Source: a virus. From it: DNA of 23,060 nucleotides. The notes beneath the pieces were generated by a model. The model was not told the DNA's origin. It saw only the letters and a program-made list of their open reading frames with translations, and did not search any database. Made by a program: the position numbers and the translations under genes. Positions 5,801 through 11,866 of the stretch are shown here, piece by piece; within the stretch, counting starts at the first letter, position 1, and each line of letters starts with the position of its first letter. The stretch covers positions 1-23,060 of IMG/VR virus record IMGVR_UViG_3300048121_000917. One strand, 5' to 3'.

Positions 5801-8800
5801 TTAGACTAAGTCGTCAATATTACTAATCTTAACACCACTTCTAACTAATACTTTAGTTAATGTATTAACGGCTGCAACTACTTGAGCAGAGTCTCCGCCA
5901 CCACCACCGGTGATTCCATCTTTAAATGCACCAATGGCACCACCGATGCCACCTGCTGCTTTTTCAAGAATACTTGCATTTTCTGCATTACCTTCACCGA
6001 CCGAAGTTTTAAATTGCTCAATCATATCTGCTAAATTCTGTAATGCATCTTCTAAAGATTCTCCCATTGCAGCAAGTATATCATCTGGACTATCTCCGCT
6101 TGCAAGAACCGCAAGTGCTTCAAACATTTGTCTGGATTCTTTAAGTTTAGTAAGATCCATTGAATTAATAGATTCAGCAACTTTAGGGAATGCAGAAGAG
6201 TTAGCAGTCATGTTTCTGCCGATAGCATTCCACAATTCAGCTTGAGCTCGGTATCCTGCGATAGGTCTTAGGTAGCTTACAGGACCAATGAACATTTCCT
6301 TCATAGTCACTGCGTTGACTTGATTTAAACCATTGATAGCTGCTGTAATTTTTGGAATAGAATTACCCATTATACCAAATGTGGTACCAACTGTCATAAA
6401 TAATGCCATTTTGGCTCCTGCCAATGCAGGATTCCAAGCATTACCTCCAATTACTTTAACAAACGAATCCATTTGTTCTTTTACTAAACTGTTAATAGCT
6501 GCAGTCATTTTTGGAATTGCCCATGACATTTTACCATATGCTGTACTAAGTCCCTTTAACATCATTAGTTTAGGAACTAAAGTTTTCGGTGTTGATTCAC
6601 CACCAAAAATACTCATAAATGCTTTACCCTTTTTAGCTTCGAACCCATTTACAGCGGTTACTATTTTGGGTATAGCATAACTAAATATATCGTAGTTGTG
6701 GCCTAGGGCATTTATCATCCTAATTGCCGTTTCTATTTCTGATTGTGATTTTTCTCCACCAGCTTCAGTAATAGCTTGAATCATAGCTTTAACCTTTTCT
6801 TGAACCTCTTGAGCGTTCGAAATATCCTTAACTATATTTGCAGCGTTCTTTGCAGCTCCCGCTAATTTCTTAAATGGATCTGCAATTTTTTCAACTAGAG
6901 CAATACCCTTTTCAAACTTGGTAGGTTTCCAGAATGACCATCCTCTACCTTTAGCAGCTTCACTACCACCAATAGTAGTAAATACGTTTGTTAATGCCTT
7001 AATTAGCATTTGTGAATTTTTTTCAATCTTAGGTACAATTTTATCTAGATCTGAAATAGTGTAATATCCAGTGGCTTTACCTTCAGCATCATATCCTTTA
7101 GCAAATTTTAAATTAGCCATATCTTGAACACCTGTTGCCAAGTTTTTAAGAGGTGTTCCCATGCCTTGTGCTAGATCAATACCTTTTTGTATTGTAGACT
7201 TTCCTCCCCACCAACTAGTTTTGGCATTAGGCGAATTACCTATTTGTGCAAAAGTACCTGATAGTGCTGTTATCAAAGTTTTAGTGTTTGCTGTAACTGT
7301 TTTAGCATGCTCTAAATTAAAAACCTCAAATCCTGTTGGTTCGCCCGTTTCTGGATCAAAACCTGTTGGCATTTTAAGCATTGCCATAGCTTGTACACCC
7401 ATTGCTATACCAGTTAAAGCTTCACCCATACCCTGTACAGAAGAAATACCGTCTGCTACTGGATTAGATTCACCTCCACCAAATATAGAAGCTAAAAGTC
7501 CTTTTTTACCACCACCTGGTAATTTAATTTGTTGACCAGTTTCTGGATCTGTTATTGTAAGACCGTTACCAATCATAGCAAATGGAACTGCTAATGAACC
7601 GACCATAGTTACTGTATTTTCAATAACTGTTTTCCAAATATCTCCAGATAGTGTTTCATATCCTGTAGCATTACCTTCTTTATCAAACCCTGTTGGGAAT
7701 TTAAGATTTGCCATGTTTTGAACACCTTTAGCAATACCAGTTAATGCAGCTCCCATACCATGTACAGAAGAAATACCCATAGCTACTGGATTACTACCAC
7801 CTAAGCCGAAGAAACCACCTCCACCACCAGTGAATTTAATTTCTGTGTCTTTCCCAGTCATTGGATCCTTAACAGTAAGCGTTCCACCTCCACCTATTAA
7901 ATTAAAAGGAACTGCTAATGAACCGACCATAAACGCTATATTTTCAGCTAGCGTAGGTAAATCAGCCTTCTCAGATATTTTTTGGAATTTATTAATACCT
8001 ATACCAATTGATATTAATGCTAAACCTGCGGTTAACATTGCTGCTGATCCTAATAATATACCAGCTGCTTCCCATGGCCACATATTGAAACTATCTCCAA
8101 TTTGACTCATTAGTACGCCTAAATTTGTCCCATCACCAGATGGGTGTTGTGCTAATAGTTTTTTAGATTTATCCATTGCTGCGCCCATGGCTGCAACACC
8201 ACCTGCAACAGTGATCAATGCAACACCAGAAACTAACATTGCCGCGGCACCTGCCAATATAAACGGAGATGCTAAACCAAGTAAACCGAATTCTACGGCT
8301 ATCATCGCTACTAAAGCACCTATTTGACCGATAAGTTCCCAACCTCCTTTTTCAAGTGGCTTTTGGATCATTCTTACTGCAAGCGCTATTAATATTATAG
8401 ACACACCTGCTAAAATCATTGCGATAGCACCTTGTTGAATTAAACTAGCTCCTAAACCTATAACTACGAATGCAGCTGCTATTCCTGCTACTACTAAAAG
8501 AGGCATAAATGATTCGAGTGTCATTTCTCCAGGTGGAATTAATGCATTTAAGATTAGAAATGCTAATGCTACAACTACTATCGCCAATGAAGCCCATAAT
8601 AGAGCTTTAGCACCTGTCATGATTGGTTTTTGGAACACCCCTATTATTGCAAATGTTACACCAATAATTGCTAACATTTTAATAGCTGCCCAAATTGTTT
8701 CCATATCTGGAATTAAATACTTAAATATTGCGAATGCAAGACCTAAACCAACAATGGCGATACCTGCCATGGCAATTGCCATAATACCTTCTCGCATGCT

Positions 8801-9667
8801 TTTGTCAACTCCCATCTTATCTAGCATCCAGAACATTAATCCCATTACTAATATAATACCTAGTGCCCATATAGCACCTTTCATTGCTTGTGGCATTATT
8901 AATTGAACTAATGCGAATGAAACAGCCATGGCTAATATACCAAGACCCAATAACATCATTCCCGTTCCAAATTCTTTTAATCTTTTACCGTCTAGGATAC
9001 CTAACATCTCAAGCACCTTTAGAGTTATACCTATTATACCTAACATAATAGCAACCCCTACAGCTCCTTTAATTGCAGGTCCTATAAATAAAGATATTAA
9101 AGCCAGTGATCCAGCAAAAACTAAAAGGGCTAAACCTACTTTTTTAAGCTGTGCTAATGCCTTTAACTTCTTTTTATCTAGTATTTTGGCCACTAACATC
9201 ACTGCACCAATTGTCGCAAAAAGAGCTATCGCTATTAAGGGCGATGCCATTGCTGTTATTATTAAAAGTGGAATTGAAAGTGCCATATACCCCGCGAATG
9301 CGAATATAGACTTACCGACTGCCCCTAGTTTTGATAAAGCGCCAGCAATGCTTTCCATTTGCTTAGCCTTTTTCTCACCGTCAGGTCCTAATTTGTTAAG
9401 TGCTTCAACTATGTAACCTAAACCTGTACCTATTGGTTTTAGTGTAGGTGCCATGATAGCCATGGCCATAGCTTCTTTAATACTTGTCTTATTACCTCCG
9501 CCTCCAGATTTACCGGAAGCCATATCCTCTAATACTGTTACTAGAGCGTCGATTCTAGAATACAAATCTCCACCTACTGAAACTGCCGCAGCAGTTACTT
9601 TAGCTGATTCATTGAGTTCTTCAATCGCCTTGCTCTGCGCCCCCATTCTATCGAAGGCGTTTTTCAT
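5801..9667 (-). CDS. Tail tape-measure protein candidate, repeat-rich and membrane-like
   Basis: A 1288-residue protein from ATG 9667; a TTG at 9682 would add five residues. Residues up to about 90 are helical and Gly-rich (ASGKSGGGGNK). From about 115 to 560 there are a dozen or so hydrophobic segments such as LSIPLLIITAMASPLIAIAL. Then come three to four repeats of about 90-105 residues with the core NPVAxGISSVxGMGxALTGI (DNA about 6830-7960), and later four shorter repeats with the core IPKITAAINGL (about 6140-6700). The C terminus has a poly-Gly linker and ends NIDDLV. Length, repeats, hydrophobicity and position right after the tube and chaperone genes fit a tape measure that sets tail length and contacts the host membrane. 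No lysozyme domain is visible. Confidence 0.7.
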   Translation of the reverse strand: MKNAFDRMGAQSKAIEELNESAKVTAAAVSVGGDLYSRIDALVTVLEDMASGKSGGGGNKTSIKEAMAMAIMAPTLKPIGTGLGYIVEALNKLGPDGEKKAKQMESIAGALSKLGAVGKSIFAFAGYMALSIPLLIITAMASPLIAIALFATIGAVMLVAKILDKKKLKALAQLKKVGLALLVFAGSLALISLFIGPAIKGAVGVAIMLGIIGITLKVLEMLGILDGKRLKEFGTGMMLLGLGILAMAVSFALVQLIMPQAMKGAIWALGIILVMGLMFWMLDKMGVDKSMREGIMAIAMAGIAIVGLGLAFAIFKYLIPDMETIWAAIKMLAIIGVTFAIIGVFQKPIMTGAKALLWASLAIVVVALAFLILNALIPPGEMTLESFMPLLVVAGIAAAFVVIGLGASLIQQGAIAMILAGVSIILIALAVRMIQKPLEKGGWELIGQIGALVAMIAVEFGLLGLASPFILAGAAAMLVSGVALITVAGGVAAMGAAMDKSKKLLAQHPSGDGTNLGVLMSQIGDSFNMWPWEAAGILLGSAAMLTAGLALISIGIGINKFQKISEKADLPTLAENIAFMVGSLAVPFNLIGGGGTLTVKDPMTGKDTEIKFTGGGGGFFGLGGSNPVAMGISSVHGMGAALTGIAKGVQNMANLKFPTGFDKEGNATGYETLSGDIWKTVIENTVTMVGSLAVPFAMIGNGLTITDPETGQQIKLPGGGKKGLLASIFGGGESNPVADGISSVQGMGEALTGIAMGVQAMAMLKMPTGFDPETGEPTGFEVFNLEHAKTVTANTKTLITALSGTFAQIGNSPNAKTSWWGGKSTIQKGIDLAQGMGTPLKNLATGVQDMANLKFAKGYDAEGKATGYYTISDLDKIVPKIEKNSQMLIKALTNVFTTIGGSEAAKGRGWSFWKPTKFEKGIALVEKIADPFKKLAGAAKNAANIVKDISNAQEVQEKVKAMIQAITEAGGEKSQSEIETAIRMINALGHNYDIFSYAIPKIVTAVNGFEAKKGKAFMSIFGGESTPKTLVPKLMMLKGLSTAYGKMSWAIPKMTAAINSLVKEQMDSFVKVIGGNAWNPALAGAKMALFMTVGTTFGIMGNSIPKITAAINGLNQVNAVTMKEMFIGPVSYLRPIAGYRAQAELWNAIGRNMTANSSAFPKVAESINSMDLTKLKESRQMFEALAVLASGDSPDDILAAMGESLEDALQNLADMIEQFKTSVGEGNAENASILEKAAGGIGGAIGAFKDGITGGGGGDSAQVVAAVNTLTKVLVRSGVKISNIDDLV
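6140..6700 (-). repeat. Four diverged 'IPKITAAIN' repeats in the tape measure
   Basis: In order of translation: YAIPKIVTAVNGF, WAIPKMTAAINSL, NSIPKITAAINGL, SAFPKVAESINSM. They are about 160-175 bases apart. Spacing is regular at the protein level, while the DNA has diverged, so these are old duplications under coding selection. Confidence 0.7.
6830..7960 (-). repeat. Tandem ~90-105 residue repeats in the tape measure
   Basis: Units are recognised by NPVAMGISSVHGMGAALTGI, NPVADGISSVQGMGEALTGI, TIQKGIDLAQGMGTPLKNL and a fading fourth copy (KFEKGIALVEKIADPFKKL). Each is followed by GVQ-MA-LK, a GFD/GYD-glycine turn and a helix ending in an IG-rich loop. The first two are most alike. A further half-unit, MVGSLAVPFNLIGGGG, precedes the array. 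Confidence 0.75.
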
Positions 9668-9710
9668 GAAATTTAAATTCAAGTTTTAGAGAAATATTTT
9701 TTAAGTATGT

Positions 9711-9738
9711 GGTGTGCTGATCGTTAGACCAGCACACC
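9711..9738 (-). terminator. Strong stem-loop between the chaperone ORF and the tape measure
   Basis: On the minus strand GGTGTGCTGGTC pairs with GATCAGCACACC across a TAAC loop, giving a 12-bp stem with one G-U pair. No U-run follows directly (the next bases are ACATAC and then A-rich). It may therefore be a weak terminator, an mRNA-stabilising 5' structure for the tape-measure transcript or an RNA-processing signal. It lies about 10 bases downstream of a GATATATA motif. Confidence 0.6.
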
Positions 9739-9758: not shown

Positions 9759-10055
9759 TTACAATTTCGGCATCTTAAACGAAGGTGCTTTCATTGATGG
9801 AACTTTGGGCATCTTAGGAGAGGACTGCGATCTCATAGCGGCCGATTGTTTCTCCTGTTGTTCTTGTTGTTCCGATGTTTGTTTATTCTTAGCCTTAATG
9901 TACTCTTGAAGATTTTGAACATAATACCAATATTCATAGTAGTACATTTCTTCAATCTCCGAGGGCTGCATTCTAAGATGTATACCCAGGTAGAACTTAG
10001 TCTTAAAGTAGTTCTGCAGAGAGATCTGAAATAATGAAAAGACTTTTGATGCCAC
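9759..10055 (-). CDS. Second tail-chaperone ORF, overlapping in the +1 frame
   Basis: Frame open from about 10127 to the stop at 9759, overlapping the end of the gp26-like gene in the +1 frame. Candidate starts are ATG 10091, GTG 10055 (used here) and ATG 9971 (70 residues, beyond the upstream stop); none has a clear ribosome site. The overlap-encoded stretch SLFQISLQNYFKTKFYLGIH flows naturally into RMQPSEIEEMYYYEYWYYV. This is the kind of 'PSEIEEM' helix seen in tail assembly chaperone C-terminal parts. The end is Gln/Lys-rich and then repeats MPK/APSFKMPKL. Position between tube and tape measure matches lambda GT or P2 E'. It may be made only as a frameshift extension of the upstream protein. 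Confidence 0.6.
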   Translation of the reverse strand: MASKVFSLFQISLQNYFKTKFYLGIHLRMQPSEIEEMYYYEYWYYVQNLQEYIKAKNKQTSEQQEQQEKQSAAMRSQSSPKMPKVPSMKAPSFKMPKL

Positions 10056-10998
10056 CTGGGAAGTCAAGAGGGGCCGTTGCGATCTCCCCATCGATTTCTG
10101 TTTCAAGTGTTGTTTGTACACCAATTCTCATTTTTTCTGCTAATCTATAAACGATCATGTATTTTCTATCATCCCAACCTTTATAATCAACTTCTAATTG
10201 AAATATCTTAGGAAGTGATAAAGATCTCCAATCACCAACAATATATGGTAAAACTTGAATAAATGCTTTATCCATTTCGATCTCTTTTTCTTGACGATCT
10301 TTTAAGTAAGCAGTTACTTCTTCCATTACACCAATTGTAGGTGGTTTCATTCTGATTTCACCAGCTGATCTAGTTTGGATTGTGTAGATTCTTTCTCCAG
10401 AATTGTAATATTTTTCAATTTCTGGTTCAATCACAGTAGGTACTAAGTTTTTAGTTGCTAATTCAATTTCAACTGTCTTTTTACCTTTTTTAGTTTTACC
10501 CTTTAGGATTAACTTATTTTCAGGTTCTGGGAAAGTTAAGTCTCTAATACTCAAAAGAAGTACAATTCTGTCTTCTTCTAAAATATCTTTGTAAGATAAT
10601 CTTCTATCACCTGACATGATTTTAGCACAAGATTCTACAATAGCGTTTAGCTTTTCTTCCATGTCGATATAATTGTTATCGTCCATTGTAGAGAAATGTC
10701 TAATCTCTGCTGCCTTTGCAGATCTAATCTTAATAATAGTATCTGCTGGATAGAATTTACCCTTTGAAGGCAAATTATCTAAATTCTCAACATGCCATCC
10801 TAATAGATCATCAGAAGGTGCAGCTTTTGGTGGGTTAAATGAACCCATATTAACTTTACCTAATCCTTGACTATCGATTACGGCTTCCATGTTAGAAACT
10901 TCTTCTGTGTTTTCTGGAACAGAAGATTGATTAATAGCGTCCTTTGACTCTAGAGCCCTTTTAGCCGCTTCTTCTTTTTTGTTTAATTCGTCACTCAT
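10003..10998 (-). CDS. gp26-like baseplate hub/tail assembly chaperone protein
   Basis: A 331-residue protein with a disordered charged N terminus (residues 1-70). It then has a domain starting NLPSKGKFYPADTIIKIRSA and running through AEIRHFSTMDD, a helix with SCAKIMSG, and DRIVLLLSIRDLTFP. This 'LPSxGxFY ... ID/EE-C ... D-LLL-IRDLTF' pattern is that of the T4 gp26-type baseplate/tail chaperone family. The last part (APLDFPGGIKSLF) then leads into a short tail SDLSAELL. It starts one base after the stop of the ribbon-helix-helix gene (TAATATG) and overlaps the downstream ORF. In other myoviruses the gene at this position makes a tail assembly chaperone acting on the tape measure. T4 gp26 itself works in hub assembly, so both readings remain open. 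Confidence 0.65.
   Translation of the reverse strand: MSDELNKKEEAAKRALESKDAINQSSVPENTEEVSNMEAVIDSQGLGKVNMGSFNPPKAAPSDDLLGWHVENLDNLPSKGKFYPADTIIKIRSAKAAEIRHFSTMDDNNYIDMEEKLNAIVESCAKIMSGDRRLSYKDILEEDRIVLLLSIRDLTFPEPENKLILKGKTKKGKKTVEIELATKNLVPTVIEPEIEKYYNSGERIYTIQTRSAGEIRMKPPTIGVMEEVTAYLKDRQEKEIEMDKAFIQVLPYIVGDWRSLSLPKIFQLEVDYKGWDDRKYMIVYRLAEKMRIGVQTTLETEIDGEIATAPLDFPGGIKSLFIISDLSAELL
10035..10041 (-). other. Candidate +1 recoding site (CTT-TTC-A)
   Basis: In the zero frame the mRNA reads AGT CTT TTC ATT. If tRNA-Leu on CUU slips forward one base onto UUU, the next codons become TCA TTA TTT CAG, entering the overlapping ORF and giving KSLSLFQISLQN. CUU-U is also the slip codon of the bacterial RF2 +1 site, though no stop codon follows here. 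The exact point is a guess within the ~120-base overlap. Confidence 0.3.
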
Positions 10999-10999
10999 A

Positions 11000-11221
11000 T
11001 TATTTGTCTTTTAGGTTTTTAAGTGTTTGTTTTAAAATTGATTTTTGATCGGGTGTTTTTAAAGATAACTCTTTTTGAATAAGATCTCGTATCCATGCAC
11101 TTACTGATACTGGGCGAGTTTCTGTTTCTAATGCTTCATTTAAAATAACCCGATTAACCTCTCGTACTTCGGCTTCTGTTAGAAGCACTTGGAGTTTTTT
11201 GGTTAATTTATTGTTATTCAT
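11000..11221 (-). CDS. Ribbon-helix-helix DNA-binding protein (73 aa)
   Basis: Started at ATG 11221 (MNNNKLTKK); a GTG 42 bases upstream would add a hydrophobic stretch that does not fit the fold. The order is a short strand KKLQVLLT, a helix EAEVREVNRVILNEAL, a turn with Pro, and a second helix SVSAWIRDLIQKEL. That is the CopG/Arc-type layout, dimeric repressors that insert a beta ribbon in the major groove. A Lys-rich tail follows (ILKQTLKNLKDK). It follows a terminator and an AT-rich gap and is coupled to the gp26-like gene (one-base gap). A regulator inside a tail operon is unexpected; autoregulation is possible but not shown. Confidence 0.65.
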   Translation of the reverse strand: MNNNKLTKKLQVLLTEAEVREVNRVILNEALETETRPVSVSAWIRDLIQKELSLKTPDQKSILKQTLKNLKDK

Positions 11222-11267
11222 AATATTTTGATATGTTAATAATATAATATATTTTCTGTGCAAAATA

Positions 11268-11308: not shown

Positions 11309-11866
11309 TTAGTTTAGTTCTTCAGCCCAAACATCAGCTCTCCAAGTGATCTCTAATGTTTGTGGATCAGCAGTTTCATAGTTTAATTCACCTGTGAAAC
11401 CAACTCCAGAAGTAATGAAACAATCATCAAGTGTTACCTTTCTGTAAATATCTCCTTCTCTGTTGAATTGTACGATTACAATTGTACCTACGTAATTCTT
11501 TTTAAGACCCATTTCACCAGTTTCTGGATTATATTGAGATCTGTACCATTGTCTTATAGTCTTGTATAAGTAAGCTTGGTTAGAATCGTTTAGGTTTAAT
11601 GTAAAGTTAACTGTTACGTCAATCGCAGTTCCGTCAGGCATACCAGCAAATGATCTGGTAGCAAACTTGTACTTTTGTTCAACCGCAGCTACTTCCCTGT
11701 GTAGAGTGTCAAGTCCTGAGATAGAGTTAATGTGCTGTAATAACATTCCTTGTCCTGTTACACCGTCTGGTGGTAAGATTGTTACTTCGAACAGGTTAGC
11801 CTGTACAGCTTCAAAATTTCTACCTTTCTTTTGAGTTTGATCCTCTGAATAATGTGGTAAAGCCAT
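11309..11866 (-). CDS. Tail tube protein (gp19-like)
   Basis: The 185-residue length is close to T4 gp19. An early strand region is FEVTILPP. The C-terminal half carries the family's features: RSQYNPETGEMG, then VTLDDCFITSGVGFTGELNY, and the end ADPQTLEITWRADVW. Stacked hexamers of this protein form the inner tube through which DNA passes. It lies just downstream of the sheath gene, as in T4 (18-19) and P2 (FI-FII). A GATATATA motif 21 bases before the ATG and a terminator after the stop suggest a separate strong late transcript. Confidence 0.9.
   Translation of the reverse strand: MALPHYSEDQTQKKGRNFEAVQANLFEVTILPPDGVTGQGMLLQHINSISGLDTLHREVAAVEQKYKFATRSFAGMPDGTAIDVTVNFTLNLNDSNQAYLYKTIRQWYRSQYNPETGEMGLKKNYVGTIVIVQFNREGDIYRKVTLDDCFITSGVGFTGELNYETADPQTLEITWRADVWAEELN

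Follow-up and report, generated by a model that had tools for sequence, protein, structure and literature searches.

A conserved +1-frame overlap points to a probably recoded tail assembly chaperone pair in relatives of phages PAU, pT24 and the Lak megaphages

Introduction

Recoding of tail chaperone genes is well known in lambda-like phages, and -1 frameshifts in tail assembly chaperone genes were reportedly described by Xu, Hendrix and Duda in 2004. The gpG/gpGT pair of lambda and other -1 frameshifts of tail assembly chaperones have been summarised (Atkins et al. 2016, PMC5009743, in excerpt). Frameshifts of this kind by -1, by -2 (phage Mu) and, probably, by +1 (the haloarchaeal myovirus HSTV-2) are already published, according to excerpts of the two sources concerned (PMC5009743; PMC8211752). 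For the release factor 2 mRNA, +1 P-site slippage on CUU before a stop codon is given in an excerpt of PMC10885494. The T4 proteins gp26 and gp51 are presented as hub assembly chaperones, gp51 being essential and of unknown function (PMC3004832, in excerpt). Among the listed titles and abstract openings of open-licence PMC papers, none reports recoding in the phage group considered here or equates gp26/gp51 with G/GT.

Here we analyze a stretch of viral DNA of 23,060 nucleotides (IMG/VR record IMGVR_UViG_3300048121_000917, positions 1 to 23,060), hereafter the window. A preliminary description made from the letters of this DNA had proposed a tail assembly chaperone gene with recoding into the +1 frame. 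Our comparisons bear this out: the locus very probably represents a G/GT-type tail assembly chaperone pair expressed by recoding. Conservation and the position in the genome speak strongly for this reading, and fold and family links lend it additional support.

Results and discussion

The locus and its relatives

The preliminary description had placed a 331-codon open reading frame, overlapped for more than 100 bases by one in the +1 frame, between the tail tube and tape measure genes. The arrangement was found as described, with an overlap of 122 nt. The features of the locus are as follows.

5801..9682, minus strand: 1293-aa probable tape measure protein, encoded downstream (by length and position; weak phrog_10871 match, E 0.15)
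9759..10124, minus strand: ORF2, the whole open +1 frame (ORF call)
9762-10037, minus strand: T-like part that would be read after a shift at CTT_TTC; stop codon at 9759-9761
10003..10998, minus strand: gene 1, probable G-like tail assembly chaperone, unshifted product; 331 codons, ATG start
10003..10062, minus strand: conserved block from a TTC(F) codon to the gene 1 stop, its 3' part dual coding
10036..10041, minus strand: candidate slip site CTT_TTC (CUU_U for +1; UUC to UUU for -2)
10044..10047, minus strand: alternative candidate slip site AAA_A (+1, tRNA-Lys); re-pairing in 39/76 clusters
10080..10093, minus strand: CGAT[GGGGAG]ATCG, at the place of the hairpin of other subclades; not kept in the window's subclade
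11309..11866, minus strand: tail tube protein, upstream (phrog_32623, 7.8e-40; phrog_4542 tail tube, 3.2e-7)

The CTT codon occupies 10041-10039, the next T lies at 10038, and the gene 1 stop is at 10005-10003. The neighbor on one side is identified as the tube gene by phrog_4542, its best match, phrog_32623, being a family without assigned function; the neighbor on the other side is taken as the tape measure gene by its size and a weak match. The overlap peptide given earlier was correct as far as SLFQISLQNYF(K), which lies inside the overlap, but TKFYLGIH is encoded past the gene 1 stop. Between tube and gene 1 there is also an 87-aa ORF (window 11000-11263) with no convincing family match. 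A perfect inverted repeat, GGTGTGCTG...CAGCACACC, terminator- or processing-like, separates ORF2 from the tape measure gene (window 9711-9738), and inverted repeats with T runs also occur downstream of ORF2 in loci L102 and L091.

A tblastn search with gene 1 matched 31 phage records, including Lak megaphages, Sphingomonas phage PAU, Tenacibaculum phages pT24 and PTm1/PTm5, Chryseobacterium phages MA9V-1/2, Flavobacterium phage MaF61 and uncultured phages of 462-735 kb; the hosts named in the isolate records are mostly Bacteroidota. Thirteen of the matched regions were taken for comparison. Scans of viral contigs yielded 249 loci, some contigs occurring twice, with three of the scans providing the best 80 of 140, 391 and 347 relatives, respectively. 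A readable gene 1 stop was present in 260 loci, comprising 246 scan loci, the window and the 13 records. Left out were L017 and L106, whose contigs end before the gene 1 stop, L264 (PAU again), L265 (phage NCTB, a single ORF) and L001, which is the window itself. With L262 dropped, as it falls into the same cluster as L261, 259 loci formed 77 clusters at 90% identity; most analyses were conducted without the L102 cluster, i.e., on 76 clusters.

Conservation of the +1 frame

Comparison of the homologous loci, a check suggested in the preliminary description, showed that the overlap frame is kept: under translation table 11, 246 of the 251 untruncated loci had a +1 frame that was open at least from -36 to +150. 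The five misses were L102, L103 and the Lak loci L086, L261 and L262. When TAG was read as Gln in the three Lak loci, which we take to be its meaning in Lak phages, the count rose to 249/251. Nine more loci end at a contig edge and have an open +1 frame up to that edge. The -1 frame was open in 65/254 loci, of which 56 are the window or close relatives; counted per cluster, with TAG as Gln in Lak, the +1 frame was open in 74/75 compared with 8/75 for the -1 frame. Openness of the +1 frame thus exceeds chance expectation. The Lak loci are the weakest case, their +1 peptide (QYSTSIWTRNSIFNTW) containing no recognisable SLFQISL motif, and in L092 this motif is present only after an insertion. The T motif QPSE was found in none of the gene 1 ORFs when searched in their own frame.

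A single-base indel would join both frames, and such an overlap could in principle reflect an error in sequencing or assembly, or a gene in decay. However, the +1 relation of ORF2, stated correctly in the preliminary description, recurs in isolates and many metagenomes (the same 246/251 untruncated loci). A one-base sequencing error is excluded because of this recurrence, and the error reading, refuted by it, retains a practically negligible probability.

Synonymous constraint at the end of gene 1

Codon-level conservation was checked in the 46 clusters whose identity to the window is 40% or more (250 codons aligned), and the synonymous sites of the last ~15 codons of gene 1 proved to be mostly frozen. 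The excess of synonymous codon identity over expectation amounted to 0.371 for the 21 columns used of the last 22 codons, versus 0.048 for the remainder of the 250 aligned codons (sd 0.102, 153 columns). Ten of the last 15 codon columns showed identities of 0.91-1.00 among same-residue pairs, where 0.30-0.61 was expected; the other five were K (0.77), S (0.57), L (0.82), F (0.88) and the penultimate L (0.39). The excess starts at an ATC codon (1.00, expected 0.44) located 14 codons before the last codon and three before CTT; the GGN codon just before ATC is nearly free (0.45 vs 0.37 expected). In 79 close loci the DNA of the block 10003-10062 is nearly identical.

The loci L102 and L103 represent the natural exception. 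Here, ORF2 starts from an ATG of its own, located 7 nt beyond the first base of the gene 1 stop codon, and the peptide FPGGIKSLF is still encoded, in this case by GGA ATT AAA TCA TTA TTT, i.e., with the special codons lost. The special codons thus go where the overlap is gone. A second ORF with its own ATG and no overlap, named beforehand as the finding that would speak against recoding, does therefore exist, but in only 2/260 loci and with the special codons lost there. Judged from these two sequences, the overlap can be dispensed with.

Recoding or independent initiation of ORF2

The same loci bring up the reading that no frameshift takes place and that ORF2 is made as a separate protein, via internal initiation or via termination-reinitiation at the gene 1 stop. 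L102/L103 do contain such a separate, ATG-started ORF2. GenBank likewise annotates a separate ORF2 in MA9V-1, MA9V-2, MaF61, PAU, pT24 and PTm1; none of these six records joins the two frames, and the starts assigned to ORF2 vary. PAU displays an SD-like GGGAGG ahead of a +1-frame ATG, and some +1-frame ATG, GTG or TTG upstream of -24 is present in 246/260 loci. Against this, a scan from the nearest upstream +1 stop to -24 flagged 14 loci without any ATG, GTG or TTG, two of which were L102/L103. The comparison thus demonstrates that no usable start is available in the remaining 12 overlapping loci of five lineages (L082/L096/L101, the six of L097, L126, L085 and L092), where the overlap is nevertheless conserved. 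With no start codon in those 12 loci, the conserved peptide of the overlap cannot arise by ordinary initiation. The argument rests on these five lineages and on conservation because the other 246/260 loci do have some start. Furthermore, the special codons vanish exactly where ORF2 gains its own ATG. We therefore regard independent initiation as very unlikely. SD-driven internal initiation had also been considered as a candidate; in the sequences looked at, the GAGG element stands at no fixed distance from a +1-frame start codon, and the candidate was rejected.

Candidate slip site and direction of the proposed shift

As had been recognised, reaching the frame of ORF2 takes either a +1 or a -2 shift. 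Among 259 loci, the codon pair at the candidate site was CTT TTC in 152, ATT TTC in 84, TTA TTC in 8, ATC TTT and ATA TTC in 3 each, CTA TTC, CTG TTC and ATT TTT in 2 each, and ATT GTC in 1; TTA TTT was the pair in the two loci without overlap. The CTT-T string highlighted in the preliminary description is hence kept in the 152 loci with CTT TTC but replaced by ATT TTC or other pairs in the rest, and [CA]TT TT[CT] occurs in 66/76 clusters. Applying a strict pairing rule, re-pairing by -2 at the Phe codon was available in 66/76 clusters, by +1 at the Leu/Ile codon in 43/76, and by +1 two codons upstream in 39/76. The rule rejects AUU to UUU; tolerating this pairing lifts the +1 count by up to 24 clusters. 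Ten of the 76 clusters cannot re-pair by -2, and in L111 and L112 (AAG TCT CTG TTC), which kept the overlap, no canonical re-pairing was available among those tried.

The predicted products are GIKSLFSLFQ for -2, GIKSLSLFQ for +1 at CUU and GIKVFSLFQ for a shift at AAA. A -2 slip of tRNA-Phe from UUC to UUU on CUU_UUC would be the most likely direction, which we rate as roughly an even call; its preference over +1 depends on the strict rule, which rejects AUU to UUU (24 clusters with AUU). The CUU-U slip point proposed earlier (10038-10041) was placed at the right coordinates and is one of the candidates, but re-pairing by -2 is available in more clusters (66 vs 43 of 76); likewise, the fused product suggested earlier, GIKSLSLFQ, is one candidate only, as -2 would give GIKSLFSLFQ. 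A T directly precedes the Leu/Ile codon in 70/76 clusters, which suits a tandem -2 slip (a middle-base match in the P site) and, equally, a hydrophobic codon in the +1 frame. Scoring of the junctions of 73 fusions against a profile of eight gp51 sequences gave a median of about 1-2 bits, i.e., noise level. At that level, the -2 junction scored above the +1 CUU junction in 24/73 fusions (mean difference +0.09 bit) and above the AAA junction in only 5/73 (mean -0.88 bit), which leans against -2.

The same recoding might instead proceed by +1 P-site slippage on CUU_U (or AUU_U) with GIKSLSLFQ as the product, which we consider somewhat unlikely. CTT or ATT precedes T in 238/259 loci, and the identity of the Leu codon is 0.82 against 0.30 expected, both as this slippage would have it. 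However, AUU to UUU is mismatched at the first position and AUU is found in 24 clusters, no re-pairing exists there in the clusters with TTA, CTG, ATA or ATC, and the A-site codon UUC is neither a stop nor rare in the genes of the window (0.29 of Phe codons).

A slip at CUU_UUC would leave the constraint at ATC, three codons before CTT, unexplained. Because synonymous constraint begins that far upstream, a +1 shift at an earlier codon (AAA_A, or between TTT/TTC and GGN) has to be weighed as well, although we deem it unlikely. In this case S-K-V-F-S-L-F, or part of it, would be read in the new frame. The third-base constraint from ATC onwards and the T of the NNT codon (70/76) would then correspond to second positions of +1 codons. 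The phrog_634 match of ORF2 begins at the V of VFSLFQ, seven of eight gp51 sequences contain [IVL]F before xFYxIN, and the AAA junction scored above the -2 junction in most of the 73 fusions (by 0.9 bit on average). On the other side, re-pairing two codons upstream is found in 39/76 clusters only, no upstream codon re-pairs in all lineages, AAG in L026, L122 and others speaks against a general AAA_A, and in some clusters the shift is bounded by +1 stops as near as -59.

RNA structures around the site

Many relatives contain a hairpin about 30 nt upstream of the slip codon, with a loop ending in GAGGU, e.g., CACGAGG[GTGAGGAGGT]CCTCGTG in L144 and GTGTGG[TGAGGAGGT]CCACAC in L184. Arms paired better with their own partners than with those of other clusters (13.19 vs 10.78; 76 clusters, 0/20000 permutations), also when 27 clusters at 75% identity were used (12.98 vs 10.50; 0/20000). 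Divided by group (90% clusters), covariation was evident in group I (0/20000) and in the group of others (1/20000); the huge group gave 2258/20000, its arms being too alike to tell, and in the window's subclade covariation was unsupported (17003/20000). As controls, arm windows slid by -60, -40, -20 and +20 gave no covariation signal, and those slid by +40 gave 38/3000. The strict hairpin motif was present at the site in 29/77 clusters, with 25 occurrences elsewhere in 351 kb; by group, it was found in 17/20 clusters of the huge group, 11/29 of group I, 1/10 of the others, 0/17 of the window's subclade and 0/1 for L102. RNAalifold supported the hairpin in the huge group (z -3.22). It found none in the window's subclade, and none in group I, whose loops vary in length. 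The upstream hairpin would thus explain nothing for this window. A distance of 30 nt exceeds that for ordinary SD stimulation.

Further candidate structures fared less well. A pseudoknot (S2; GGAGG loop with TTTCC) was rejected, with cognate pairing of 12.46 vs 12.50 shuffled (76 clusters; reached in 11881/20000 permutations). Three downstream arm pairs tested by shuffling as stimulators were unsupported, and shuffling likewise lent no support to pairing the upstream hairpin region with sequence downstream, in either of two arrangements; a search by RNAalifold for conserved downstream structure found none (z -0.93, 0.12, -1.01). A long CCCAGGU/ACCUGGG stem (window 10054-10060 with 9985-9991) flanks the slip site and stop; it is kept in the window's subclade, occurs also in L129, L133, L140, L147 and L157 via a G-U, and the whole region holding it gave an RNAalifold z of -3.84 in the window's subclade. 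As a stimulator, this stem was dismissed: covariation was little, and the 5' arm would be inside the ribosome at the slip.

Protein families and predicted folds

The gene 1 protein matched phrog_36717 (2.2e-24), a family without assigned function. Among 339 PDB chains aligned with an AlphaFold (AF2) model from 33 sequences (pLDDT 81.3, pTM 0.71), the best match, and the sole one above Z 5, was 2ob9, a tail assembly chaperone of HK97 (Z 5.3, rmsd 4.0, 88 aligned); a Z of 5.3 is below the caution level of Z 8, where chance arrangements occur. Compared with BFVD, the model gave 46 matches under 0.001; Gp26 of Aeromonas phage 25 (E 2.6e-4) was among them, and several others carry the name baseplate hub subunit or that of a T4-like baseplate hub assembly protein. 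A sequence search of the PDB with the gene 1 profile returned no convincing match. The family PF12322 (T4_baseplate) takes in T4 gp26 (8.8e-64), gp51 (3.9e-52) and gene 1 of PAU (3.4e-8; 33.9 bits, over the Pfam gathering cut-off of 24.5). Of 18 gene 1 relatives, 6 matched it with E values of 0.1 or lower; the gene 1 protein of the window gave no match.

ORF2 matched phrog_634 (4.8e-7, residues 28-90), and 13/24 ORF2 sequences did so with E values of 0.1 or lower, the best being 6.1e-7. The same family matches T4 gp51 at residues 147-246 (1.2e-23), not gp26. A T-domain profile reached T4-like gp51 weakly (EC-F2, E 0.019, C-terminal residues 199-246), T4 gp51 itself being absent from its best 15 matches; the link between ORF2 and gp51 is thus carried by phrog_634. 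Direct comparison of the gene 1 alignment with single sequences by hhalign was weak, with probabilities of 4% for gp51, 52% for gp26 and 38% for NCTB. The T model had no PDB match at Z of at least 5 among 10 chains aligned and none under 0.001 in BFVD, where a pT24 protein came best (0.026). From these family matches gp26 looks like G and gp51 like the fused GT, direct profile comparisons being weak.

A model of expression and its implications

We infer from the comparisons that recoding would occur, in which direction and how efficiently, and what its products would do. Most ribosomes would complete gene 1 and release the G-like protein; a minority would enter the +1 frame near CUU_UUC and synthesize a G-T fusion, with ORF2 supplying its C-terminal helical T domain. 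With the favored -2 shift, tRNA-Phe on UUC would re-pair with UUU two bases back to give ...GGIKSLF/SLFQISL.... If the pair works like lambda gpG/gpGT, the tape measure protein would be coated by many copies of G, and a few of GT would recruit the tube protein. As a wider and tentative scenario, the T4-like jumbo and megaphage group may use -2 on [CA]UU_UUC, several subclades may have added a new upstream hairpin stimulator (with its SD-like GAGGU loop end), and T4 may have swapped recoding for gene duplication, with gp26 as G and gp51 as GT.

If true, the annotation would be corrected across a large group including huge phages, perhaps Lak. The arrangement also hints at roles of two poorly understood T4 proteins, gp26 and gp51, and the conserved site, together with its natural loss in L102/L103, would make a good system for rare +1/-2 recoding.

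Comparison with known systems

In common with lambda gpG/gpGT, the gene lies between tube and tape measure, a short frame overlaps its 3' end, and G and G-T products are predicted. In contrast to lambda, the frame accessed is +1 (by +1 or -2) and not -1, the proposed slip site is not an XXXYYYZ heptamer as in the -1 systems, and the 331-aa product of gene 1 is grouped with proteins like T4 gp26/gp51. The slip sequence of phage Mu is a G-run, whereas the candidate here is [CA]UU_UUC. Mu and HSTV-2 are likewise myoviruses in which the +1 frame is reached, HSTV-2 being listed among tail chaperone frameshifts in the excerpt of the review.

In jumbo phages of Erwinia, Dickeya and Pseudomonas (NCTB, L265 1929-2870, and 68 further records), a G-T fusion in one ORF is possible; NCTB alone was read for this, and the profile did not confirm it. 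NCTB SBV38385.1 (L265; phrog_150 match, 7.7e-9) resembles the present locus in its place directly before the tape measure gene, which is annotated as such in NCTB. It differs in being a single continuous ORF of 313 aa, with a T-like tail seen by eye only and unconfirmed by profile. T4 gp26 and gp51, unlike the present pair, are encoded by two separate, divergently placed genes, and they match PF12322, which the window's own gene 1 does not. Both nevertheless share this family with gene 1 of PAU, and gp51, not gp26, matches phrog_634 in the same way as ORF2.
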